Shown here piece by piece: positions 3,715 to 16,601 of a stretch of 27,680 bases of DNA. Every line of letters begins with the position of its first letter. Positions within the stretch are counted from its first letter, which is position 1. Under the pieces are notes generated by a model that had not been told where the DNA came from, made no database searches, and saw nothing but the letters and a program-made list of their open reading frames with translations. This stretch comes from a virus. The translations under genes were made by a program, and so were the position numbers. The DNA lies in the IMG/VR virus record IMGVR_UViG_3300030103_005392, positions 1-27,680 of that record. One strand, given 5' to 3'.

Positions 3715-5232
3715 ATGGCGTCTACTTGGGGGACTAATGTATGGGGATCGAACTCATGGCAGAGTGATGTTAACTCTGTAGCCCCAAGTGGCAACGTCAT
3801 ATCTTTATCAATAGGAACAGAAGACGCCTTCAACGTTGATGGTTGGGGTGGACAAACGTGGGGATTTAACGTTTGGGGTAACCTAACAGATGCTTTTGGA
3901 CAACCTTCAGGAGTCCAATTAACTATATCTCAAGGAGACGAATCCGTAACAGGAGAAATCAATGCTGGTTGGGGCGGAGGTCCTTGGGGCGAAAATGGTT
4001 GGGGTATATTTGGTGATGCTCTTGCAGGTTCACAATTAATTCAATCTGCTGTTCAAAGTGTAACTACAACTGCAGATGCAAACATAAGTCCAACAGCGGT
4101 TTCAATAGCTTCTTCGGTTGGTAACGAAGGTGTTCAGATCGATGTAGCTGTAGTCGCTGCAAGTCAAAATTTAACAATCACTCAAGGTAATGCAGATCCT
4201 GAACCTGATGCTGAAGCAACAGGTCAAGCGTTAACTCTAACACTCGCTTCAGTTTCTATTACAAATGAAATTAATATTGGTTGGGGTGGATTAACTTGGG
4301 GTGCAAACAATTGGGGAGATTTAGCTAACCCTACTGTCGGTGTCACAGGTCGACAATTATCAGTTTCATTAGGAGATGAATCAAACACAGCTGATGCAAA
4401 TGTAAGCGTAACGGGTATAGGAAGAACCGTTACATTAGCAGGTGCTGTTGCAGGAACTTCAGTAGATCCAAACATCACAGGAGTAACTCTTGCTGCACAA
4501 CAAACAAGTGCTTTTGCAGGTGAGTTGGTAGTAGTTGAAGTAACAAGTCCTGTTAATGATGAATGGGGCACTGAATCTTGGGGTCAAGGTTTCTGGGGAG
4601 TTGGAGACGGAGTCACAATATTTGTTGGAACAGATACAGTTCAAACGGGTGAAGCAACAGCTTCTCCAACTGGAGTATCGGCAACAGGATCATTAGGAAC
4701 TTTAGGTCAAGCTTCAATATATGAATTTACAGGAGCTCAAGCAGCCGTTGCACAAAATAGTGCATTTGGTGGAGAGTTAGTAATTGTTCCTGTTACAACC
4801 GCATCAGCTTCATCTTGGGGTGAACAAGCTTGGGGCGTAGGAGAATGGGGTCAAGGTGTAGGAACTGATATTTCACAAGGTGGTGAAGAAGTAGCTATCC
4901 CATCAGTTGAAGTAGATGTTACACCAGTAACTCTTGCAATCAGTGTTGGTCAAGAATCAATTAAAGCAGACGCAAATGTTACCCTTACAACAGCTGGATT
5001 ATTACAAACAGCTTTAGGTGATGAGGACGCTTTCACTAATGTAAGAGTTCCTGTTACAGGTCAAGCATTAGGCCCTATAATTATTGGTGATTATTTAGCA
5101 GGAATAAGTATTACTGCAACTCCAACAGGAGTGACAGGAACAGTAACAGCTGGTATAATGGGAATAAATGCATGGGCTGTTGTTGACCCTGGAGCGAGTC
5201 CAACATGGACGGTAGTTGACAAGGCGGCGTAA
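3715..5232 (+). CDS. Modular virion protein with six Trp-Gly modules
   Basis: A 505-residue Thr/Ala/Val/Gly-rich protein. Six modules follow exactly W-G-x3-W-G-x3-W, with tryptophans at 5/10/15 (last Gly replaced by Gln), 44/49/54, 86/91/96, 190/195/200, 284/289/294 and 368/373/378. They are separated by 30-100 residue beta-like spacers that themselves repeat (for example S-L-G-D-E-S and A-F-A-G-E-L-V-V-V / A-F-G-G-E-L-V-I-V). A GAGGGAG site precedes ATG 3715. It is probably a tail or surface component. The same Trp spacing occurs once in the tail hub protein at 12143-14062, hinting at a shared docking element. No catalytic motif is visible. Confidence 0.7.
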   Translation: MASTWGTNVWGSNSWQSDVNSVAPSGNVISLSIGTEDAFNVDGWGGQTWGFNVWGNLTDAFGQPSGVQLTISQGDESVTGEINAGWGGGPWGENGWGIFGDALAGSQLIQSAVQSVTTTADANISPTAVSIASSVGNEGVQIDVAVVAASQNLTITQGNADPEPDAEATGQALTLTLASVSITNEINIGWGGLTWGANNWGDLANPTVGVTGRQLSVSLGDESNTADANVSVTGIGRTVTLAGAVAGTSVDPNITGVTLAAQQTSAFAGELVVVEVTSPVNDEWGTESWGQGFWGVGDGVTIFVGTDTVQTGEATASPTGVSATGSLGTLGQASIYEFTGAQAAVAQNSAFGGELVIVPVTTASASSWGEQAWGVGEWGQGVGTDISQGGEEVAIPSVEVDVTPVTLAISVGQESIKADANVTLTTAGLLQTALGDEDAFTNVRVPVTGQALGPIIIGDYLAGISITATPTGVTGTVTAGIMGINAWAVVDPGASPTWTVVDKAA

Positions 5233-5270: not shown

Positions 5271-5921
5271 ATGGCATCAAGTTATTCGACAGATTTAAAA
5301 CTCGAACTAATGGTAACAGGGGAAAACTCTGGAACATGGGGAGATAAAACTAATACAAACTTAAACCTAGTACAACAAGCAGTTGCGGGATTTGAATCAA
5401 TATCAATTGCAGGTGGAGCTCAAACTACTGCCTTAGCGATGACTAACGGAACGATTTCAAACGCAAGAAATGCAGTTATTAAATTATCAGGTACTATTAC
5501 AGGAAACCAAATTGTAACAATTCCAGATTCAATTGAAAAAACTTACATCGTTGAGAATGGAACTGTTGGAGCTTTCACGGTTCAGTTCAAAACTGTATCA
5601 GGAACAGGTCCTACTTTTTCTGCAACAGACAAAGGAACTAAACTTCTTTATGCTGATGGTACAAATGTAAATGATATCTTAAGCAAATCGTCTGGAGTAA
5701 ATCTAGTAAACAGAAATGAAGTGAGATTTGAAGACGCTACAGGTGGTGAGTATGTTGGCCTAAGAGCTGCGGCAACTGTCGGATCAAGCTTTACTTTAAA
5801 TCTACCTACTGCTGATGGTTCATCAGGAAATGGTTTAAAAACAGATGGAGCTGGAAATTTATCTTTCGGCGACGTCGCAACAACAGGTAAAGCCATTGCA
5901 ATGGCTTTAGTTTTTGGTTAA
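5271..5921 (+). CDS. Tail-fibre-like protein
   Basis: A 216-residue protein beginning with S-S-Y-S-T-D-L-K-L-E-L-M and then G-E-N-S-G-T-W-G-D-K-T-N-T-N-L. The 'NSGTWGxxTNxNL' block near the N-terminus is one I recognise from fibre and fibre-like proteins of marine phages. The rest is beta-rich with short repeats and ends G-L-K-T-D-G-A-G-N-L-S-F-G-D-V, typical of fibre stalk or tip segments. AAAGGA precedes the start. It lies within a run of tail genes ending in the adhesin. Short for a complete fibre, so it may be one part of a multi-subunit fibre. Confidence 0.65.
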   Translation: MASSYSTDLKLELMVTGENSGTWGDKTNTNLNLVQQAVAGFESISIAGGAQTTALAMTNGTISNARNAVIKLSGTITGNQIVTIPDSIEKTYIVENGTVGAFTVQFKTVSGTGPTFSATDKGTKLLYADGTNVNDILSKSSGVNLVNRNEVRFEDATGGEYVGLRAAATVGSSFTLNLPTADGSSGNGLKTDGAGNLSFGDVATTGKAIAMALVFG

Positions 5922-6330: not shown

Positions 6331-6801
6331 ATGGCCAAAATCTTTGTTAAGATAGACAACAGCGAAACTACATTACCTTTAAGAGACACAGGTTCTATTA
6401 CAGGTAAGCAAGTACTTAATAGTGTCTTATTCGATGATGACGCTACAGTTGAGTTTGTTGAATCTTTCCAAAATGATGGACACTCATACGTCGAAGCAGA
6501 AGAAGGTAAACATATGATAAATGGTTTTTATATTCCTGCCATGTCTAAGTTTACCAACCACAATTCTTACCCAAACACTTGGAAGTTAGATGGAACTACT
6601 TTGATTTATGGACCACCAGAACCATGGCCTATGATCGACCAATCATTATCAACTGACGAAAGTGGAAACGAATACGATGTTATTTGGGAAGAAGATCCAA
6701 TGAGACTAATTAGAAAGCAAATAGATTCAGAAGGAAATGTTATTACACCTGAAGTAGTTCAAGTGTATAATACTTCAAGTAACACATGGGAGAATGAATA
6801 A
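6331..6801 (+). CDS. Tail-module protein, unknown function
   Basis: A 156-residue acidic protein with no family recognised. The first third is beta-like (K-I-F-V-K-I-D-N-S-E), the middle has Y-G-P-P-E-P-W-P-M-I-D and the last third D-V-I-W-E-E-D-P-M-R-L-I-R-K. It has a very strong AGGAGG ribosome site 11 bases upstream and overlaps the adhesin start by one base (TAATG). Being just upstream of the adhesin, it could be an adhesin connector or assembly protein, but that is only positional inference. Confidence 0.6.
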   Translation: MAKIFVKIDNSETTLPLRDTGSITGKQVLNSVLFDDDATVEFVESFQNDGHSYVEAEEGKHMINGFYIPAMSKFTNHNSYPNTWKLDGTTLIYGPPEPWPMIDQSLSTDESGNEYDVIWEEDPMRLIRKQIDSEGNVITPEVVQVYNTSSNTWENE

Positions 6802-7658
6802 TGCCAAATAGACAATATTTTAATAATGGTGGTATCATTGGTCCAAACAACGATCCACAAGTATCAGCAGAACAAATTACAACTTTTACTTCTTCAGGTA
6901 CTTTTAACCCATCTGCAGCAACTGCTGAAATTTTATTAATCGGCGGTGGCGGTGGCGGAGGCCCAAACCGAGGAGGTGGAGGCGGAGCGGGAGGCTTATT
7001 GCATTCCTCAGAGCACCCACTTAATGGATCACCTTACCCAGTTTCAATTGGTGGCGGTGGCCCTGGAGGCGGAGGTGGCCCACAAAACTTTCCAGGTGGA
7101 CAAGGTGGACAATCTACATTTGACGGACACACTGCAATCGGTGGTGGTTTCGGAGCGGGACACGGCGGTAACTCAGCGGGCGGCGCTGGAGGATCGGGCG
7201 GAGGAGCAGGACACGCAGGAGGTCCAGGATCTCCAGGATCAGCTCAACAAAACCCAAGTGGCCCTTTTACAGGATATGGATTTCCAGGCGGAGGGGGCGG
7301 AGACCCCGGAGCTGGAGGAGGCGGATCAGGCGCTACAGCTTCTCCTAGAAACACAGGAGGCGCTGGAAGACAATTCGATATAGAGAGTCCAACAGATTCA
7401 CCATCACAAACACACTATGCTTCTGGAGGAGCAGGAGGAAGAGGATCAGGTCCCCCAACTCCTGGAGGCGGAAAAAGTGCACAAGGTGGAAACTCTGGCG
7501 GAGGCGGAGGAAGTCATGGTCCTGTAACATCATCTTATGGAGGCCAAGGCGGATACGCAGTATTTAAAGAACCAGGTGGATTTGCTGGAGCTTCTGGAGT
7601 GTGGACTTTATCAGAAGTTTTAGATCTAGTTGCAGCAGGCAATTGGTCAAGCAGTTAA
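6801..7658 (+). CDS. Glycine-rich receptor-binding tail adhesin
   Basis: A 285-residue protein with three parts. Residues 1-46 form a lead-in with T-T-F-T-S-S-G-T-F-N-P and E-I-L-L-I-G, common before Gly-rich fibre tips. Residues 49-260 are dominated by glycine runs broken by short variable segments, often with Pro-Gly (P-G-S-P-G, F-P-G-G). Residues 262-285 end with S-G-V-W-T-L-S-E-V-L. Gly-rich domains of this kind pack as polyglycine-II helices in phage adhesins (established for T4-superfamily gp38). The variable loops would touch the host receptor. GC content rises sharply here because of Gly codons. It is the last tail gene before the oxygenase cassette. Confidence 0.8.
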   Translation: MPNRQYFNNGGIIGPNNDPQVSAEQITTFTSSGTFNPSAATAEILLIGGGGGGGPNRGGGGGAGGLLHSSEHPLNGSPYPVSIGGGGPGGGGGPQNFPGGQGGQSTFDGHTAIGGGFGAGHGGNSAGGAGGSGGGAGHAGGPGSPGSAQQNPSGPFTGYGFPGGGGGDPGAGGGGSGATASPRNTGGAGRQFDIESPTDSPSQTHYASGGAGGRGSGPPTPGGGKSAQGGNSGGGGGSHGPVTSSYGGQGGYAVFKEPGGFAGASGVWTLSEVLDLVAAGNWSSS

Positions 7659-7699: not shown

Positions 7700-8299
7700 A
7701 TGGTCTTAAAGCATAAATATATCTATTTTAGAAACGCATTCCCAAAACATCTTTGTCAAAACATAATTAAATATGGTTTGTCGAAAGGACAAGCTCATGA
7801 TGCTGTTATAGGAGATCAAAATCGAGGAGAGGTTACTAATCACAGAATAAGAAAAAGTAACGTTGATTGGCTTGAAGATAAATGGCTAAATATTAAGCTA
7901 TTTAGAATCATTGAAAAAGCAAATGAACTAGCAGGTTGGAACTTCCAAATAGATGCTGCTGAGCCTGTGCAATTTACAATATATAAACCTGGTATGCATT
8001 ATGATTGGCATGAAGATGCTTTTGAAGGTGCCTACGATAGACAAAATATACCTTATCTTAATGGTAAGGCTAGAAAATTATCCATGTCAATGTTATTAAG
8101 TGAATTCAATGAATATAAAGGTGGAGAGTTTGAAGTGGACTTTGGTAATAGAAAAGAACCCACAAGAACTGTCTACGAGATGCAAAACCAGGGAGATGCA
8201 ATAGTGTTTCCATCTGATTTATTACATAAGGTTAGACCTGTAACACATGGAACAAGATACTCATTAGTGATGTGGAGTATAGGGTGGCCATTCAAATGA
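7700..8299 (+). CDS. 2OG-Fe(II) oxygenase, prolyl-4-hydroxylase type
   Basis: A 199-residue protein of the prolyl-hydroxylase/PKHD class. Iron ligands are visible: H104-x-D106 in Y-D-W-H-E-D, and distal H176 in L-L-H-K-V-R-P; R186 (G-T-R-Y-S-L-V) would bind the 2-oxoglutarate carboxylate. Such enzymes use O2 and 2-oxoglutarate to hydroxylate a substrate, often a peptidyl residue or small molecule. ATG 7696 is out of frame, so ATG 7700 is the start; it has no ribosome site but a promoter-like element and hairpin. It follows the Gly/Pro-rich adhesin and overlaps the next gene by 4 bases. Substrate unknown. Confidence 0.85.
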   Translation: MVLKHKYIYFRNAFPKHLCQNIIKYGLSKGQAHDAVIGDQNRGEVTNHRIRKSNVDWLEDKWLNIKLFRIIEKANELAGWNFQIDAAEPVQFTIYKPGMHYDWHEDAFEGAYDRQNIPYLNGKARKLSMSMLLSEFNEYKGGEFEVDFGNRKEPTRTVYEMQNQGDAIVFPSDLLHKVRPVTHGTRYSLVMWSIGWPFK

Positions 8300-8970
8300 A
8301 CAAATTTAAAGAAAAAAATTATTTTGTAATTAAGAAAGCGATAAGCAAAGAGTTTGCAGAATTTATTTATAACTATTTAGTTCTCAAATCGAACGTTGTT
8401 AATAACCTATTTAAAGATAAATACTTAGAACCTTTCAATACAGATTTAGGAACCTTTGGTACTAATGAACAAGTTAACATACCAGAAACATATTGTTGCT
8501 ACGGTGATTTTGTAATGGAAACATTACTTCTTAAATTGAAAGGTAAGATGGAAAAACTTACAAAACTTCAATTGATACCAAACTATTCTTACACAAGATT
8601 GTATAGAAGAGGGTCTATCTTACCTAAACACAAAGACAGATTTAGTTGTGGTATATCAACTACACTTAATCTTGGTGGAGATCCATGGCCAATATATATT
8701 GAGCCTGACATGACTTACGGAAATAAATCACCTGAAGGTAAATATATTATGAGTGATAGCAAAGGTGTAAAAGTAGACTTAGCACCTGGTGATATGTTGG
8801 TTTACAACGGTATCGATTGTGAGCATTGGAGGGATGAGTTTACAGGAGAGAAATGTGGTCAGGTGTTTTTACACTATCAAGAGACAACACAAAGAGGTTT
8901 AGCTAATAAATTTGACGGAAGACCAGCTCCAGGCTTTCCAGCATTCTATAGAAAAACCAATGAAGATTGA
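8296..8970 (+). CDS. 2OG-Fe(II) oxygenase-like protein
   Basis: A 224-residue protein when started at ATG 8296, which overlaps the previous stop as ATGA; an upstream in-frame ATG at 8272 is inside the previous gene and is less likely. Y-T-R-L-Y-R-R-G-S-I-L-P-K-H-K-D carries H112-x-D114, followed by a strand T-T-L-N-L-G-G. Distal H177 lies in C-E-H-W-R-D-E-F, and the end of the core has V-F-L-H-Y. This is the double-stranded beta-helix layout of 2OG oxygenases seen in many marine phages. Substrate unknown. Its stop overlaps the halogenase by 11 bases. Confidence 0.8.
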   Translation: MNKFKEKNYFVIKKAISKEFAEFIYNYLVLKSNVVNNLFKDKYLEPFNTDLGTFGTNEQVNIPETYCCYGDFVMETLLLKLKGKMEKLTKLQLIPNYSYTRLYRRGSILPKHKDRFSCGISTTLNLGGDPWPIYIEPDMTYGNKSPEGKYIMSDSKGVKVDLAPGDMLVYNGIDCEHWRDEFTGEKCGQVFLHYQETTQRGLANKFDGRPAPGFPAFYRKTNED

Positions 8971-10486
8971 TAAAATTGTTATCGTAGGAGGTGGTTCATC
9001 TGGATGGATGACCGCTGCAACCCTTATTAAATTGTTTCCTAGTAAAAAGATTACATTAATAGAATCTAAAAATTATAAAATAGTTGGTGTAGGAGAGAGC
9101 ACATTAGGAACTATAAACCAATGGTTATCTTTACTTAAAATTAAAGATAAGGATTTTTTACCATATACAGATGGAAGTTATAAACTAAGTATAAGGTTTG
9201 AAGACTTCTATAGGAAGGACGAGAGTTTTCATTATCCGTTTGGACTACCTTACGAAGATAATTTATGGTCTGGAAAGAACACTTGGTATTTTAAAAAAAT
9301 GTTAAAACGAAACACAATGGTTTCGAATTATGCAAACTTTTTATATCCACAAATGCAATTAGTAAAATATAATAGAATAGGTATAAACAAAGATGGAGAA
9401 CTTGGTAACTTTTCATTTGCTAATGACACAGCTTATCACTTTGATGCAACAAAGTTTGGACAATGGTTGAAAGAAAAAATATGTATACCTGAAGGTGTTG
9501 AACACATTATTGATGATATTGAATCTGTAGAACAAGATGAAAATGGTGTCGTATCTCTTAACAATAAGTACAAAGCTGATTTATATATTGATTGCACAGG
9601 TTTCAAATCATTATTACTTGGTGAAAATCTTAAAGTGCCTTTTAAAAGTTATGAGAACCTTTTACCAAACAATAGTGCATGGGCTACAAGAATTCCTTAT
9701 GAGGATAAAGAAAAACAATTAGTGCCTTATACAAATTGTAAAGCTGTAGAGAACGGCTGGATCTGGACAATACCAAGTTGGAATAGAATCGGTACAGGTT
9801 ATGTTTATTCAGATAAATACATAAGCGATGAAGACGCTTTAGCACAATTAAAAAAACATTTAGGTAAGGAAGATATAGAAGCTAACAACATAAAAATGAG
9901 AATTGGTATGCATGAAAAGATCTTTGTAAAAAATGTAGTAGCAATAGGATTATCTGCAGGTTTTATTGAGCCACTAGAAAGTAATGGTTTGTTTACTGTA
10001 CATGAATTTCTTATTGAATTAGCAAGAACATTAAGAAGACCTAATGTAAATCAATTAGATAGAGATGAGTTCAATCATTGCTGTAAAGGTACCTTTGATC
10101 GTTTTGCAGAATTTGTAGCTGTGCATTATTACATGTCAGCAAGAGATGATACTCAATATTGGAGAGATCTTACAAACAAATCAATAGCAAAAGAAAAGAT
10201 GGGTAGTTACGATATTGAAAGATTAATTGAACATAAAAATAATTATAACTATTACAGTGAAACAGGCTTGCAATGTATTGCGACTGGTATGTATAGGTTT
10301 CCAACAGATGATATTGCGATAGCTACAGAAAATTATCTTAAAGAAAAAACTAACGATTGGCTTCTGGATAAATTTGGTAAAGATATTACTGAGAGAGAAC
10401 GAACGGTAGGAAGATGGAAGGAAGCTGCATTAAAAAAACCAAAATTAATTGATGTTCTAGCTGATATACATGCAAAAAGAAATTAA
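8960..10486 (+). CDS. Flavin-dependent tryptophan-type halogenase
   Basis: A 508-residue protein from ATG 8960; a longer in-frame start at 8912 would lie deep in the previous gene and precede the FAD-binding strand. Features of the PrnA/RebH family: dinucleotide motif G10-G-G12-S-S-G15 after the first strand, V-G-V-G-E-S-T (residues 42-48), K75 in G-S-Y-K-L-S-I-R-F at the place of PrnA catalytic Lys79, W267-I-W-T-I-P272 matching the WxWxIP signature, and E340 in P-L-E-S-N-G at the place of PrnA Glu346. It would use FADH2, O2 and halide to halogenate an electron-rich substrate. Phage halogenases of this class are known (VirX1 from cyanophage Syn10). Substrate here unknown. Confidence 0.92.
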   Translation: MKIDKIVIVGGGSSGWMTAATLIKLFPSKKITLIESKNYKIVGVGESTLGTINQWLSLLKIKDKDFLPYTDGSYKLSIRFEDFYRKDESFHYPFGLPYEDNLWSGKNTWYFKKMLKRNTMVSNYANFLYPQMQLVKYNRIGINKDGELGNFSFANDTAYHFDATKFGQWLKEKICIPEGVEHIIDDIESVEQDENGVVSLNNKYKADLYIDCTGFKSLLLGENLKVPFKSYENLLPNNSAWATRIPYEDKEKQLVPYTNCKAVENGWIWTIPSWNRIGTGYVYSDKYISDEDALAQLKKHLGKEDIEANNIKMRIGMHEKIFVKNVVAIGLSAGFIEPLESNGLFTVHEFLIELARTLRRPNVNQLDRDEFNHCCKGTFDRFAEFVAVHYYMSARDDTQYWRDLTNKSIAKEKMGSYDIERLIEHKNNYNYYSETGLQCIATGMYRFPTDDIAIATENYLKEKTNDWLLDKFGKDITERERTVGRWKEAALKKPKLIDVLADIHAKRN

Positions 10487-10976
10487 AACATTTATAGAGC
10501 AACCTGTCTTCTTGTTTGTAGAAAAAATAAAAATTGATATAAAATATTTTAAACATAGAATCGATGAAGGTATAGCACACGAATCAAATAAAAATTATCA
10601 ATCAAATGTTCAATCTAAAATGACAGCTTGGAATTTTTTCTGTGATGATGAGGTGTTTATAAAACAAGTTTTTCGTCCTGCGAGAAATATTATAGAGACA
10701 AGAACAAGGGAAGGTAAATTTAAATTACATAATGCATGGGGAATAAAACAATCTAACGATGAGAAAACAATTAGCCATGACCACAGACCAAGCTTGGCTT
10801 CAGGTGTTGTCTATTTAGATGATTGTGATCAAGAGTTACGTTTTGATCAAATAGACCAGGTCATCAAACCTCAAAAAGGCTTATTAGTATTGTTCTCTGG
10901 TATTCTAAATCATTATACAAATAGGAATAAATCAAATGACAAATACGCATTATCCTTCAATCTCTTCTACGTTTAG
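10470..10976 (+). CDS. Putative 2OG-Fe(II) oxygenase, His-x-His variant
   Basis: A 168-residue protein. I-S-H-D-H-R-P-S-L-A-S-G-V-V-Y-L carries H103-x-H105 before the strand S-G-V-V-Y-L, resembling the '2OG-FeII_Oxy_5' group of phage and marine bacterial proteins, where the usual Asp can be His. Distal H148 is in L-N-H-Y-T-N, and the usual 2-oxoglutarate-binding Arg position appears to be Lys (K158, D-K-Y-A-L-S-F-N). It starts 17 bases before the halogenase stop. Because of the His/Lys substitutions, it could be altered in activity or non-catalytic. Substrate unknown. Confidence 0.65.
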   Translation: MQKEIKTFIEQPVFLFVEKIKIDIKYFKHRIDEGIAHESNKNYQSNVQSKMTAWNFFCDDEVFIKQVFRPARNIIETRTREGKFKLHNAWGIKQSNDEKTISHDHRPSLASGVVYLDDCDQELRFDQIDQVIKPQKGLLVLFSGILNHYTNRNKSNDKYALSFNLFYV

Positions 10977-11556
10977 TACAGATTGGATAATTATTACTAA
11001 TATAAATGTAAAAGGTTTGAAAACACAAATAAACAAACTTACTAAAAAATCAATTGAAGTAAATGTTGAAGAGCGATCTACTTCAGGTGGAGTGTCAAGG
11101 CAATACGATATCTTTTCACAAATTAAATATAATGCAGGGTTACCTACACCATCACAAAAATATTTTCATTATATTAGAGATGAGGTACAAAAAGCTTTAC
11201 ATTTGAAATTCAACCATAACTTTAACTTACAATATATTTCAGGTTGGACTGTGAAGGGAGAAGAGCATACATATCATACTTTGCACAAGCATAACTACAA
11301 AAACAAAATAAGTGTTGAAAAGAAAAATTTAGAAGTAGCCTCTGTAGTCTATTTAGATGTGCCTAAATATGATGAGAAACATTCAAAAGATGCTAACAAT
11401 TTTTATTGTGTTCTTAATAATGAATACATAAAATATTATTCATACAAACCAAAAATAGGAGATCTCATTATATTCCCTATTTGGTTATGGCACGGCTCAT
11501 ATCCACAAACCAAAGGTACGAGACAAACTCTTAACTTAGATTTTAAATTATTATGA
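10936..11556 (+). CDS. Putative 2OG-Fe(II) oxygenase with His cluster
   Basis: A 206-residue protein. Histidines at 111, 114, 117 and 119 sit before E-V-A-S-V-V-Y-L-D-V, so the metal pair is probably H117-x-H119. Distal H186 is in W-L-W-H-G-S-Y-P and R196 in G-T-R-Q-T-L-N-L-D-F. This is the same layout as the preceding gene, suggesting an old duplication followed by strong divergence. ATG 10936 lies 41 bases inside the previous gene, preceded by AGGAA; no better ATG exists downstream before conserved sequence. It overlaps the next gene by 4 bases. Substrate unknown. Confidence 0.65.
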   Translation: MTNTHYPSISSTFSTDWIIITNINVKGLKTQINKLTKKSIEVNVEERSTSGGVSRQYDIFSQIKYNAGLPTPSQKYFHYIRDEVQKALHLKFNHNFNLQYISGWTVKGEEHTYHTLHKHNYKNKISVEKKNLEVASVVYLDVPKYDEKHSKDANNFYCVLNNEYIKYYSYKPKIGDLIIFPIWLWHGSYPQTKGTRQTLNLDFKLL

Positions 11557-12110
11557 ACATAAAAGTTATAGATAATTTCATACCATTACAGACACAGAAT
11601 GAGCTGAAAGATTTAATGATTGGAAGGGAAAGAATATTCCCTTGGTTCTTTATTCCAGATGTAACAGGTTCAGGAGATCAAAATAGATCAGCCGTACAAC
11701 ATGAATTCTATAATCTTTCTAATGGAGTGAACTCAAATTTTTTAGAGAATATTTTACCAGTGGTAAAAAATTTCAATAGACCTGACCTTTGTGTACTAAG
11801 AGCCAATTCATTTTTACAATTTCCAAATCCTGATTATAAACAATATGATACACCACATTTAGATATGCCAAAATATGATAGATCATATACGATAGTCCTA
11901 TACTATGTATGTGATTCAGAAGGACAAACAATATTTTTTAACTCTAAAAACAAGGTCATTAAAAAAGTTATGCCTAAACAAGGGCGGGTTGCTATCTTTG
12001 ATGGGTCTATTCTACATACAGCTTACCAACCAACAAAATCCGTACGATGTATTATAAATTTTAATATAAATAATACATTTATGGACAATATCAGTTCTTT
12101 AACCATTTAG
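11553..12110 (+). CDS. 2OG-Fe(II) oxygenase
   Basis: A 185-residue protein with a clear core: H102-L-D104 in D-T-P-H-L-D-M-P, a strand T-I-V-L-Y-Y-V, a turn D-S-E-G-Q-T-I-F-F, then P-K-Q-G-R-V-A-I-F-D-G, distal H155 in I-L-H-T-A-Y-Q-P, and R165 in V-R-C-I-I-N-F-N. This matches the short stand-alone oxygenases common in marine phages. The start overlaps the preceding stop as ATGA, so the whole cassette from 7700 is a coupled unit. It is the last gene before a fresh promoter-like element. Substrate unknown. Confidence 0.8.
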   Translation: MNIKVIDNFIPLQTQNELKDLMIGRERIFPWFFIPDVTGSGDQNRSAVQHEFYNLSNGVNSNFLENILPVVKNFNRPDLCVLRANSFLQFPNPDYKQYDTPHLDMPKYDRSYTIVLYYVCDSEGQTIFFNSKNKVIKKVMPKQGRVAIFDGSILHTAYQPTKSVRCIINFNINNTFMDNISSLTI

Positions 12111-12136: not shown

Positions 12137-12151
12137 ACGCTTATGCCATTA
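12123..12151 (+). repeat. 11-bp hairpin containing the hub start codon
   Basis: Arms 12123-12133 and 12141-12151 pair over 11 positions (nine Watson-Crick, two G-U) around a 7-base loop. ATG 12143-12145 lies fully in the downstream arm. The candidate -10 element overlaps the upstream arm, so a transcript starting at 12143 would not carry that arm. Confidence 0.55.
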
Positions 12152-14062
12152 ACTAAAGTAAATTTTGCACCTGGTTTCAATAAACAAGCTTCTGAGTCAG
12201 GAGCCGAAAACCAATGGGTTGACGGAGATTTTGTAAGATTTAGATACGGAATGCCTGAAAAGATTGGTGGTTGGGATGAGATTAAAGACTCAAAACTAGT
12301 AGGTGCAGCAAGAGATATTCACAGTTGGTCAGATTTAGCAGGTAGAAGATACCTTGCTATCGGTACAAACAAAGCTTTGTACATTTACAATGGTGATGAT
12401 TATTACGACGTCACACCTTTCAACACAGCTTTGGCTCAGTCAGGTTGTAACATCACAACAACTAGCGCTTCGAGAACTGTAACGATTACTTCTCCAGCGC
12501 CCCACAACCTCGAACCAGGCGATATCATATCGTTTGTTAATGCTGGATCTTTTAATGCAGCACAAACAGGATATGTTGCATCTGATTTTGACAATGTATT
12601 ATTTGAAGTACAGTTAGCTCCAACATCAACAACTTTTACAATTTTAATGCCTAGCGCAGAATCAGGTTCAGGCACTACAAATAACGGAACATTAGATCTT
12701 AAAGCTTATTTTCAAATAGGTCCATTATTACAAGGTTTCGGTTTTGGTTGGGGAACTGCATTATGGGGTGGATCAACTTGGGGTACACCTAGATCAACTT
12801 CGTCTGCAGTTTTAGATCCAGGTTCTTGGTCTTTAGATAATTATGGTGAGTTACTGATTGCAACAGTAAAGAATGGAGTAACATTACAATGGGATCCAGA
12901 TAATGGTAACGGTATTAATACAAGAGCAGTTGTATTGTCAGGAGCTCCGACTAAATCTGTAATGACTTTGGTTTCTGACAAAGATAGACACCTAATACAT
13001 TTGGGAACAGAAACAACAATTGGTAATACGGCAACACAAGATAAAATGTTTATAAGATTTTCAGATCAAGAAAGTCTTACTGATTACACAGCAACATCAA
13101 CGAACACTGCAGGATCAATGCGAATCGATAGCGGAACTAAAATTGTTGGAGCTGTAAAAGGTAAAGATTATACTTTGATACTCACAGATACATCAGCATA
13201 CTTAATGCAATTTGTAGGTCCACCTTTTACCTTTAGTATTAGGCAGGTTGGTTCAAATTGTGGATGTGTCGGTCAGCATGGAATAGTTTACGCTAATGGT
13301 GCAGTATATTGGATAGGAAACTCAGGTGGTTTCTTTATGTTTGACGGAACGGTAAAAGCTCTACCATCACTTGTTGAAGATTTTGTATTTACTACAGAAG
13401 ATGGTGCACCTGGATTTAATTTTGCTAGTGGAAGTGAACTATGCTATGCTTCACAAAATAGTTTGTACTCTGAGATTTATTGGTTTTACGCTGCGTCTAA
13501 CTCAAACTTTGTAAACAGATTAGTCGCCTATAATTATGCTGAGCAAACTTGGTACACTAGCACCTTAGCAAGAACAACATACACTGATACAAAAGTATTT
13601 AACGATCCAATAGCTACAGAGTTTACAAACAATGTTGCACCAACAACACCAACAATTCAAGGTGTGTCTGAAGGATCCTCACAGGTATTTAACCATGAAG
13701 TTGGTAGAAACGAAGTTCTAGCTAATGGAACTGTAAATGCAATTCCTGCGTTTATTCTTTCTGGAGATTTTGATTTAGATGCTCAAGGTGATGGTGAGTT
13801 CTTTATTAAGATAAGAAGATTTATACCAGATTTTAAATATATAAATGGTGATGCAAAAGTAACACTTACATTGAGAGACTTTCCATCTCAAACACAGGCT
13901 AGCTCACCCTTAGGGCCATTTACAGTTAACTCATCTACGAGTAAGGTAGACACAAGAGCAAGAGCTAGGCTTGCAGCAGTGAAAGTAGAGAATGATGGAA
14001 TTAATCAAAGTTGGAGATTTGGACAATTTAGATTTGACATACAACCTGATGGAAGAAGATAA
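12143..14062 (+). CDS. Tail hub/DNA-stabilisation protein (P22 gp10-like)
   Basis: A 639-residue protein starting P-L-T-K-V-N-F-A-P-G-F-N-K, with W-V-D-G-D-F-V-R-F-R-Y-G and P-E-K-I-G-G-W. This opening is typical of P22 gp10-like stabilisation/hub proteins of short-tailed phages, which close the tail channel below the portal ring. The body is beta-rich, with repeated short strands as in a propeller. Residues 203/208/213 form one W-G-x3-W-G-x3-W module like those in the 3715-5232 protein. The C-terminus has S-W-R-F-G-Q-F-R-F-D-I. It restarts the structural genes after the enzyme cassette and overlaps the next start by one base. Confidence 0.75.
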   Translation: MPLTKVNFAPGFNKQASESGAENQWVDGDFVRFRYGMPEKIGGWDEIKDSKLVGAARDIHSWSDLAGRRYLAIGTNKALYIYNGDDYYDVTPFNTALAQSGCNITTTSASRTVTITSPAPHNLEPGDIISFVNAGSFNAAQTGYVASDFDNVLFEVQLAPTSTTFTILMPSAESGSGTTNNGTLDLKAYFQIGPLLQGFGFGWGTALWGGSTWGTPRSTSSAVLDPGSWSLDNYGELLIATVKNGVTLQWDPDNGNGINTRAVVLSGAPTKSVMTLVSDKDRHLIHLGTETTIGNTATQDKMFIRFSDQESLTDYTATSTNTAGSMRIDSGTKIVGAVKGKDYTLILTDTSAYLMQFVGPPFTFSIRQVGSNCGCVGQHGIVYANGAVYWIGNSGGFFMFDGTVKALPSLVEDFVFTTEDGAPGFNFASGSELCYASQNSLYSEIYWFYAASNSNFVNRLVAYNYAEQTWYTSTLARTTYTDTKVFNDPIATEFTNNVAPTTPTIQGVSEGSSQVFNHEVGRNEVLANGTVNAIPAFILSGDFDLDAQGDGEFFIKIRRFIPDFKYINGDAKVTLTLRDFPSQTQASSPLGPFTVNSSTSKVDTRARARLAAVKVENDGINQSWRFGQFRFDIQPDGRR

Positions 14063-14694: not shown

Positions 14695-14924
14695 TGAGTG
14701 AAAAACAAAAAACAGTAATTATCAATGGAGAAGAAGTACCAGTTCTTCCAGCGAAAGCAGAAGAAGAGGTCGTAAACAAAAGAACAGGACAAAAATATGA
14801 TAGCAAAGATCATTTTGATTCTGATGTTGCTGATCCCAGTACTGATACTACTTCAGATGATTTACAAATTAATCAGAAAATAACAGTTGCATCTCTTGAA
14901 GTATTTGGTAAAACCAAATCATAA
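14694..14924 (+). CDS. Small acidic conserved phage protein (76 aa)
   Basis: A 76-residue protein with V-I-I-N-G-E-E-V-P-V-L-P-A (residues 8-20), then N-K-R-T-G-Q-K-Y-D-S and an acidic stretch D-V-A-D-P-S-T-D-T-T-S-D-D, ending L-E-V-F-G-K-T-K. I recognise this type as a small conserved protein of marine phages without known function. It is coupled to both neighbours by TAATG overlaps, immediately before the glycosyltransferases. Confidence 0.65.
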   Translation: MSEKQKTVIINGEEVPVLPAKAEEEVVNKRTGQKYDSKDHFDSDVADPSTDTTSDDLQINQKITVASLEVFGKTKS

Positions 14925-15862
14925 TGCAACCAGCAGGCGGTACTGAAATACAACTCGCATATCTTAAAAAGTACGTTGACGAAGGTGTGCTTTCTTCAGT
15001 CCAAATAACAACTTCAATACCAGAGAAAGAACCTTTAGATCCACTAAAACCTAATATTCTTTGGTTAAAAAATTCTTACGATCAGCCTAATCTAGCACCC
15101 TGGTTTCAAAACAAAGACAACCATGAGAAGTATGATTGGTATGTATTCAATTCTCATTGGAGTTTTGAGAAGTATAGATATTTTTTTAAGGTGCCTGAAG
15201 ATAGATGTACGGTAATAAAAAATGCTATTGATTATGATGAGTTACAATTAAAGACTGATTTTACACCAAAACAAAAAATTAAAATGTGCTATATCTCAAC
15301 ACCCTGGAGAGGTCTTGAGGTAGCTCTAAATGCGATGGAGAAGATAAATGATCCTGACATTACATTAGATGTTTATTCAAGCACTATTATATATGGTAAA
15401 CAATTTCATGATCATAATGACAAAAGTTATGAAAAATTATATGAAAAAGCAAAAAGCTTACCTAATGTTAATTACATGGGTTATTGCAATCACAAAACAT
15501 TATTAACTAAACTAAAAGATTACGATGTAAATTGTTTTCCGAGTATCTGGGAAGAGACTTTTTGTATATCAGCTATGGAGTCATTAGCTGCAGGTCAGAT
15601 GTTAGTTACTACAGATCTAGGTGCTTTACCTGAAACTTGTTGTGAGTTTCCAATATATATACCGTTTACACAAAATAAAGATAAACTAACGACACAATTA
15701 GTAGAATGTATTTTACAAACTAAAAAAATATTATCTAATGATTTATCTAGCCATTTAAAATTTCAACAAGAGTATTACAGAAGATTTTATGATTGGAAGT
15801 ATATTGCAAATAGTTGGGCAAACTTTTTAAAAGGAGCAATTCATGTCAAACGAAACAAATAA
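14924..15862 (+). CDS. GT-B glycosyltransferase (GT4-like)
   Basis: A 312-residue protein beginning almost at once with P-A-G-G-T-E-I-Q-L, the N-terminal acceptor-side 'GGTE' loop of GT4 enzymes; the usual first beta-strand is missing or very short. W-Y-V-F-N-S-H-W and the linker V-I-K-N-A-I-D precede the C-terminal Rossmann domain (I-K-M-C-Y-I-S-T-P-W-R-G-L). The E-x7-E donor-binding motif is E211 to E219 in E-T-F-C-I-S-A-M-E. It would transfer a sugar from a nucleotide sugar. It overlaps the next glycosyltransferase by 20 bases. Acceptor unknown; virion proteins or host surface glycans are possibilities. Confidence 0.85.
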   Translation: MQPAGGTEIQLAYLKKYVDEGVLSSVQITTSIPEKEPLDPLKPNILWLKNSYDQPNLAPWFQNKDNHEKYDWYVFNSHWSFEKYRYFFKVPEDRCTVIKNAIDYDELQLKTDFTPKQKIKMCYISTPWRGLEVALNAMEKINDPDITLDVYSSTIIYGKQFHDHNDKSYEKLYEKAKSLPNVNYMGYCNHKTLLTKLKDYDVNCFPSIWEETFCISAMESLAAGQMLVTTDLGALPETCCEFPIYIPFTQNKDKLTTQLVECILQTKKILSNDLSSHLKFQQEYYRRFYDWKYIANSWANFLKGAIHVKRNK

Positions 15863-16601
15863 AAATCATATTATGATATGCACACCTGTGCATTCTGATG
15901 TATCGATACATTATATGAAAGCCTGTCTAGATCTACAAAAGGAATGTATTTTAAATAAAATAAAAATTACTTTTCAATTAATGAAGTCTTCTCTTGTAAC
16001 TCAAGGTAGAAACTTATGTGCCTCTGCTTTCATGAATTCAGATGCGGAGTATATGTTGTTCATTGATTCTGATGTAGAGTTTACAACTAGATCTGTCATG
16101 AGATTAATGAAATCACCACATGACGTATCATTAATACCTTATCCTATAAAACAAAAGACTGATGCTAAGTTTAGAAAAGATTTTGAAACAAGACCTGATG
16201 ATGACATAAATACTATGGGTCATTTGTTTCCTATTGAGATACCAGATACAAAAGATATTAGACCTGTGGATGGATATATTGAAGTTATTAAAGGACCAAC
16301 AGGCATGATGATGATTAAGAAGTCTGTATTTGAAAAGCTTAAAGAACACTACAAAGAACTTGTTATTAAACAGAAAACTTTAATGAATGGTGAGCTAATA
16401 GATAGGCCAAACTATTATAACTTTTTTGATACATATTGGAGTCCGTCTAAGAAAACTTACATGGGTGAAGACTTTTATTTCTGCCAACTTTGGAGAGCTA
16501 TTGGTGGTAAGATTTTTGCCTTATGTGATGAAGAAATAAGCCATATTGGAGAGTATAAGTATACAGGTAAAGTTAAGGACGAATTCTATAAAATCGGCTG
16601 A
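15843..16601 (+). CDS. GT-A glycosyltransferase (GT2-like)
   Basis: A 252-residue protein with first strand I-M-I-C-T-P-V-H, S-L-V-T-Q-G-R-N-L-C, and F-I-D-S-D-V-E-F holding the metal-binding D75-S-D77 motif. Further on are G-P-T-G-M-M-M-I-K-K, G-E-D-F-Y-F-C-Q-L-W and S-H-I-G, matching the acceptor and metal-His regions of GT-A enzymes common in marine phages. AAAGGAG precedes ATG 15843, inside the upstream gene. It pairs with the GT-B enzyme as a two-step glycosylation unit. Donor and acceptor unknown. Confidence 0.8.
   Translation: MSNETNKNHIMICTPVHSDVSIHYMKACLDLQKECILNKIKITFQLMKSSLVTQGRNLCASAFMNSDAEYMLFIDSDVEFTTRSVMRLMKSPHDVSLIPYPIKQKTDAKFRKDFETRPDDDINTMGHLFPIEIPDTKDIRPVDGYIEVIKGPTGMMMIKKSVFEKLKEHYKELVIKQKTLMNGELIDRPNYYNFFDTYWSPSKKTYMGEDFYFCQLWRAIGGKIFALCDEEISHIGEYKYTGKVKDEFYKIG

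Follow-up and report, generated by a model that had tools for sequence, protein, structure and literature searches.

We found that a six-gene enzyme cassette in the genome of a marine phage, consisting of five predicted 2OG oxygenases and a predicted halogenase, lies directly behind the gene of a glycine-rich (Gly-rich) tail protein whose composition, across related phages, follows the content of the cassette. One enzyme goes with cysteine, another with histidine and a third with proline; the Cys link is the firmest, the His link is good and the Pro link is suggestive. We consider it fairly probable that the cassette is a modular modification kit for the Gly-rich tail protein, each enzyme working on its own type of residue. 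The window, by which we mean the whole stretch of 27,680 nucleotides that was analyzed, spans positions 1 to 27,680 of IMG/VR record IMGVR_UViG_3300030103_005392.

The backbone of the window is that of an HTVC023P-type pelagiphage. Its structural gene order is shared with MN698239.1 at 30-84% protein identity (most 43-73%), and both flanks of the cassette are syntenic with isolate HTVC023P, whose host is Pelagibacter HTCC1062. As an earlier preliminary description of this DNA had proposed, the cassette comprises six plus-strand open reading frames (ORFs), from 7700 to 12110, each overlapping the next head to tail (by 4, 11, 17, 41 and 4 nt in the 5' to 3' direction). All six genes are intact. 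The cassette and its boundaries are laid out as follows.

5271 to 5921, plus strand: T5271, a conserved tail gene of the HTVC023P gp69 type (58% identity to HTVC023P gp69), the upstream boundary of the variable slot
6801 to 7658, plus strand: Gly-rich tail protein of 285 aa (PF21722, E=4e-13), which ends the upstream tail block
7700 to 8299, plus strand: OX1, predicted PKHD-type 2OG-Fe(II) oxygenase (PF13640, E=6e-15; PiuC matches in the PDB)
8296 to 8970, plus strand: OX2, prolyl-4-hydroxylase-like 2OG oxygenase by predicted fold (no Pfam or NCBIfam match)
8960 to 10486, with the ATG at 8960, plus strand: HAL, predicted flavin-dependent halogenase, VirX1-like (PF04820, E=1e-104)
10470 to 10976, plus strand: OX3, predicted PF13759 oxygenase (E=7e-9; AF2 fold)
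10936 to 11556, plus strand: OX4, predicted rare PF13759 oxygenase (E=1e-7)
11553 to 12110, plus strand: OX5, predicted 2OG-Fe(II) oxygenase (PF13640, E=4e-7; phrog_274, E=3e-37)
12143 to 14062, plus strand: virion structural protein (phrog_3287), the downstream boundary of the cassette and the marker for backbone trees

Measured against two related contigs, dN/dS was 0.03-0.13 for all six cassette genes, indicating that they are functional genes under purifying selection, not chance ORFs. Downstream of the cassette, at 14924-16601, the window carries two glycosyltransferase-like genes that are conserved in the phage group and could glycosylate hydroxylated residues.

The proposed make-up of five oxygenases around a halogenase also holds: OX1 and OX5 (PF13640) and OX3 and OX4 (PF13759) all score above Pfam cut-offs, OX2 is placed by its fold, and HAL by PF04820. 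OX1 and OX5 are predicted to be canonical 2OG-Fe(II) oxygenases. The HxD...H..R motif of OX1 (H104, D106, H176 and R186) is at least 99% conserved at each residue among 168 relatives, and the family alignment of OX5 gives the same motif at H102, D104, H155 and R165; in both family alignments the Arg lies ten residues on from HxD...H. OX2 shares the HxD...H metal triad with OX1 and OX5, and the triad is conserved in its family alignment (H112, D114 and H177). OX3 and OX4 carry HxH...H, as do the PF13759 subfamilies examined, at H103, H105 and H148 in OX3 (conserved in the family alignment) and at H117, H119 and H186 in OX4 (five relatives recovered among the fetched loci); a large family of phage oxygenases may thus hold its iron by three His residues. 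The AlphaFold (AF2) model of OX3 (pLDDT 92.9) best matched the viral collagen prolyl hydroxylase vCPH (5c5t) and was also near 3bvc and 2rg4, both uncharacterized; the predicted folds of OX2 and OX3 are nearest to protein-modifying prolyl hydroxylases, vCPH included. We also noted that phrog_274 is labeled DNA endonuclease V; its member in the window, OX5 (11553-12110), is a predicted 2OG-Fe(II) oxygenase.

HAL retains all the motifs that were sought, namely GxGxxG, K76, WIWTIP (WxWxIP) and E338 in query numbering, and its catalytic Lys and Glu are 100% conserved in 103 relatives. The best PDB match was VirX1 (6qgm, 4.9e-113), and by sequence HAL is a VirX1-like flavin-dependent halogenase with predicted activity. 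It would be chemically plausible for an iodide-preferring enzyme of the VirX1 type to halogenate His or Tyr by an electrophilic route. None of the best 80 bacterial halogenase matches had an oxygenase run around it; an OX-family ORF lay in the flanks of three of these 80, one of which, a Prochlorococcus SAG contig, is probably of phage origin. A halogenase in a deltaproteobacterial MAG (L249, 7986-9587), 50% identical to the phage enzyme, had no oxygenases nearby. A viral contig (L008, 7169-19946) carries five halogenase genes amid oxygenases, and two others (L007 and L080) carry three each.

We then compared the cassette across ~240 loci drawn from IMG/VR scans with the halogenase, the downstream structural protein and OX2. 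The slot between the tail genes and the structural gene is hypervariable: the 73 loci with a complete slot held 57 different ordered enzyme sets, with 0-11 oxygenases per slot and a halogenase in 28/73, and the backbone tree implied at least 16 gains or losses of the halogenase. In this 73-locus set, no pair of loci with structural proteins 75-95% identical had an ordered set in common. The six-gene set and order of the window, which the preliminary description had proposed to look for in viral contigs, recurred in L003-L006, with L009 covering the first three genes, and is confined to close relatives; elsewhere the members vary. In HTVC023P-type phages this locus commonly holds a run of oxygenases, whether accompanied by a halogenase or not. 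The T4-like cyanophage syn9 has a single run that holds many oxygenases together with two halogenases, a larger set than that of the window, and Sf-CH11 has one halogenase with four oxygenases, so that the view of five oxygenases plus a halogenase within tail genes as unusual was not borne out. The same description had held that a common cassette with independently varying members would be unrelated cargo. Cassettes are indeed common and their members do vary independently; however, enzyme content tracks the residues of the neighboring protein, contrary to unrelated cargo. In six loci (L102, L104, L120, L124, L126 and L145), an oxygenase cassette occupied the same slot on the opposite strand.

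The neighboring Gly-rich ORF is probably a receptor-binding adhesin, by analogy with gp38 of T2-type phages, whose receptor loops are described in PMC12892980 as sitting on Gly-rich PGII sandwiches. Since these sandwiches carry the receptor loops, modification of the Gly-rich protein would be expected to change host contact. A Gly-rich ORF lay between T5271 and the first enzyme in 47/55 loci of the window's arrangement, with a median gap of 523 bp; the remaining 8/55 had enzymes and no Gly-rich ORF in between. The cassette arrangement changed at least four times on the backbone tree, and among contigs with enough upstream sequence a Gly-rich ORF preceded T3715 in 0/13 window-type loci versus 5/9 loci with an upstream cassette. 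Adjacency of Gly-rich ORFs and oxygenases was modest by contig permutation, and whole-record rotation of five isolate genomes placed Gly-rich domains near oxygenases in a consistent direction that was not significant (combined p=0.17). A small protein, HTVC023P gp63 (phrog_7759; L010, 9686-10204), with similar ORFs in L016, L046 and L236, is encoded between the Gly-rich protein and the cassette, and is possibly a chaperone or adaptor.

In the discovery set, we tested eight residues of the Gly-rich ORF, and His alone differed clearly with the halogenase. The HAL-His prediction was fixed beforehand, and a new non-redundant group of loci, drawn largely from two additional scans, served to test it: His was 0.97% in 50 loci with HAL and 0.55% in 57 without (p=3.7e-6). 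No other of the 20 residues passed p<0.001 with the same sign in the discovery and the replication sets alike; Cys was slightly lower with HAL in both. A scan of eight enzyme subfamilies, split by sequence, against 20 residues (160 tests, 149 non-redundant loci) gave its strongest signal for the gp66-type oxygenase, the PF13759 subfamily containing HTVC023P gp66, and Cys (1.40% versus 0.21%, p=1e-20, q=1.6e-18). HAL went with His (1.11% versus 0.57%, p=4e-11) and OX1 with Pro (6.85% versus 3.3%, p=5e-6, with only 10 loci lacking OX1). The OX1-Pro link is the one expected from the family, in that a prolyl-hydroxylase-like enzyme pairs with proline. The gp66-type/Cys link was present in both split sets (p=1e-6 and 1.5e-14). 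When the two enzymes were cross-tabulated, Cys followed the gp66-type enzyme only and His followed HAL only, a double dissociation. The window fits the rule: OX1 and HAL are present and the gp66-type oxygenase is absent, and the 285 aa of its Gly-rich protein include 95 Gly, 25 Pro, 7 His and 0 Cys. Proteins encoded elsewhere in these loci showed no effect or a small one, the maximum for His being in OX1 (p=0.0039, versus 4e-11 in the Gly-rich ORF).

Further candidate associations were set aside. The Asp link of OX3#7 and the Gln link of OX3#6 were weak and lacked tree support. A first signal in which the number of enzymes went with the Pro, Lys or Asp content or the length of the adhesin vanished or reversed within one arrangement.

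The main rival to enzyme-substrate pairing, which we regard as unlikely though the most serious, is linkage only: the adhesin type and the nearby enzymes would be inherited as one recombining block, with the adhesin not a substrate. The Cys-linked gp66-type oxygenase does lie mostly between OX1 and OX2, near the adhesin gene (34 loci), the turnover of cassettes goes hand in hand with that of tail genes, and such co-inheritance could produce part of the signal. Against linkage, the Cys and His traits dissociate cleanly, a single residue dominates per enzyme, and the effect recurs over numerous independent switches along the backbone tree. Counts of independent pairs on that tree were 14.9 in the same versus 0.0 in the opposite direction for Cys and the gp66-type enzyme (p=6e-5), 16.5 versus 1.6 for His and HAL (p=5e-4), and 3.5 versus 0 for Pro and OX1, too few to reach significance. 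On the OX1+OX2 tree, the counts were 7.1 versus 0 for the Cys link (p=0.016) and 4.9 versus 0.6 for the His link, which was not significant (median p=0.125). Among the most similar adhesins differing in enzyme, Cys was higher in 55/58 and His in 53/66, and the persistence of the effect in such comparisons (28/30 and 25/30) likewise speaks against linkage. A first fresh set based on OX2 had almost no contrast and a second scan was added; in the fresh set from these two last scans, Cys was 1.44% versus 0.30% (one-sided p=0.0009, with only five loci lacking the gp66-type enzyme), and His was weakly raised at 0.83% versus 0.51% (one-sided p=0.049), the top residue being Ile, not His.

Less probable still are targets in the host or among small molecules, reached through a pathway resembling secondary metabolism or through 2OG use in host metabolism, with the neighborhood no more than a recombination hot spot. 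VirX1 is active, accepts many free aromatic substrates and prefers iodide, according to PMC8407142, and a 2OG/NtcA role has been proposed for cyanophages (PMC3037559). Yet the slot has no scaffold-building genes, the enzyme sets vary freely and so form no fixed pathway, the NtcA proposal concerns cyanobacteria and not SAR11, and the residue match is left unexplained.

There is very little to favor the Trp-rich WG-repeat tail protein (3715-5232), in place of the Gly-rich protein, as the target of the halogenase: at least two WG repeats occurred in 23/23 complete loci with HAL and a scorable T3715, but the link was lost under tree control (2.5 versus 0, 7.5 ties, median p 0.5) and many loci with HAL, for example L012 and L014, have no WG-rich ORFs. 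We rejected this candidate as a phylogenetic confound. The window's WG-repeat protein has 17 WG and 20 Trp in 505 aa; the protein is missing from many relatives, and its association with the halogenase is through ancestry only.

The published reading of OX2 in HTVC023P-type phages as a ferrochelatase partnering the iron oxygenases can practically be discarded: although PHROGs (phrog_2954), GenBank and PMC9599517 annotate the family so, none of 44 OX2 homologues scanned against Pfam matched a ferrochelatase, the window protein matched nothing in Pfam or NCBIfam, ferrochelatase included, and OX2 keeps HxD...H and has the predicted fold of prolyl-4-hydroxylases. Its AF2 model (pLDDT 87.5) best matched Pseudomonas prolyl-4-hydroxylase, PHD2 and other 2OG enzymes in the PDB. 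This fold match, together with the negative scan, means that the published label is most likely wrong and that OX2 is, by predicted fold, a prolyl-4-hydroxylase-like 2OG oxygenase. The "ferrochelatase" of pelagiphages and many cyanophages (phrog_2954/phrog_3531, HTVC023P gp67) likewise appears to be such an oxygenase. The published iron-metabolism reading of these phages depends on the label that our analysis corrects.

We therefore return to the modification kit. In this model, OX1 and perhaps OX2 would hydroxylate prolines of the Gly-rich protein, the VirX1-like halogenase would halogenate its histidines and possibly tyrosines, and in relatives the gp66-type PF13759 oxygenase would act on cysteines. 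Among the six enzymes of the window, these residue assignments cover OX1, HAL and perhaps OX2. Modification would take place during virion assembly, and kits would be swapped by recombination along with adhesin changes, diversifying the receptor-contacting surface. The cassette had been suggested to build a stepwise modification of one target. The single target gains real support, with enzyme content tracking the residues of one neighboring protein; the stepwise order is not supported, and parallel modification fits better because the enzymes are gained and lost independently and each is linked to a different residue. More broadly, we give about even weight to the idea that a combinatorial system for modifying the receptor adhesin, matched to its residues, is encoded by abundant marine phages. 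Each of its exchangeable oxygenases, and its halogenase, would alter a single type of amino acid, and the surface in contact with the host would gain oxidized and halogenated side chains outside the standard set of 20.

Few of the unexplained "auxiliary metabolic genes" carried by marine phages are commoner than those for 2OG oxygenases, and viral halogenases have no known natural substrate; the residue match points to one concrete candidate, the adjacent Gly-rich tail protein. It also yields per-residue predictions that can be tested by proteomics of cultured pelagiphages. If true, these genes would be recast from helpers of host metabolism to agents of host-recognition chemistry. Earlier publications have described clustered 2OG genes and prnA-like halogenases in cyanophages, as well as 2OG clusters in HTVC023P-type phages, with proposed roles in nitrogen or 2OG signaling, DNA repair, antibiotic protection or iron metabolism (PMC3037559, PMC2984593, PMC9599517). 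Our literature search found no paper tying phage oxygenases or halogenases to tail proteins as their target.

Among the closest published cases are the 2OG/"ferrochelatase" genes of HTVC023P-type phages (PMC9599517), which belong to the same phage group and the same families (OX1, OX2 and PF13759) as those of the window; that paper mentions no halogenase, reads OX2 as a ferrochelatase and, in its accessible text, proposes no adhesin target. The closest solved relative of HAL is VirX1 from cyanophage Syn10 (PDB 6QGM), HAL being ~43% identical to the Syn10/syn9 halogenase over the matched part. VirX1 was characterized on free aromatics and its natural substrate is not known, whereas for HAL we propose a protein target; in syn9, a phage related to Syn10, the halogenases lie within an oxygenase run behind tail-fiber genes. 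The window's Gly-rich protein belongs to sequence family PF21722 and is likened to gp38 from its sequence alone. The gp38 of T2-type phages S16 and PP01 is a Gly-rich receptor-binding protein with hypervariable loops, and the likeness lies in a Gly-rich domain in a tail gene; the accessible part of PMC12892980 does not discuss modification of gp38. Finally, vCPH of PBCV-1, the nearest fold to OX3, is like OX3 a viral enzyme, a 2OG prolyl hydroxylase; however, vCPH is a lone gene of an algal virus, whereas the enzymes of the window would make up a combinatorial kit.
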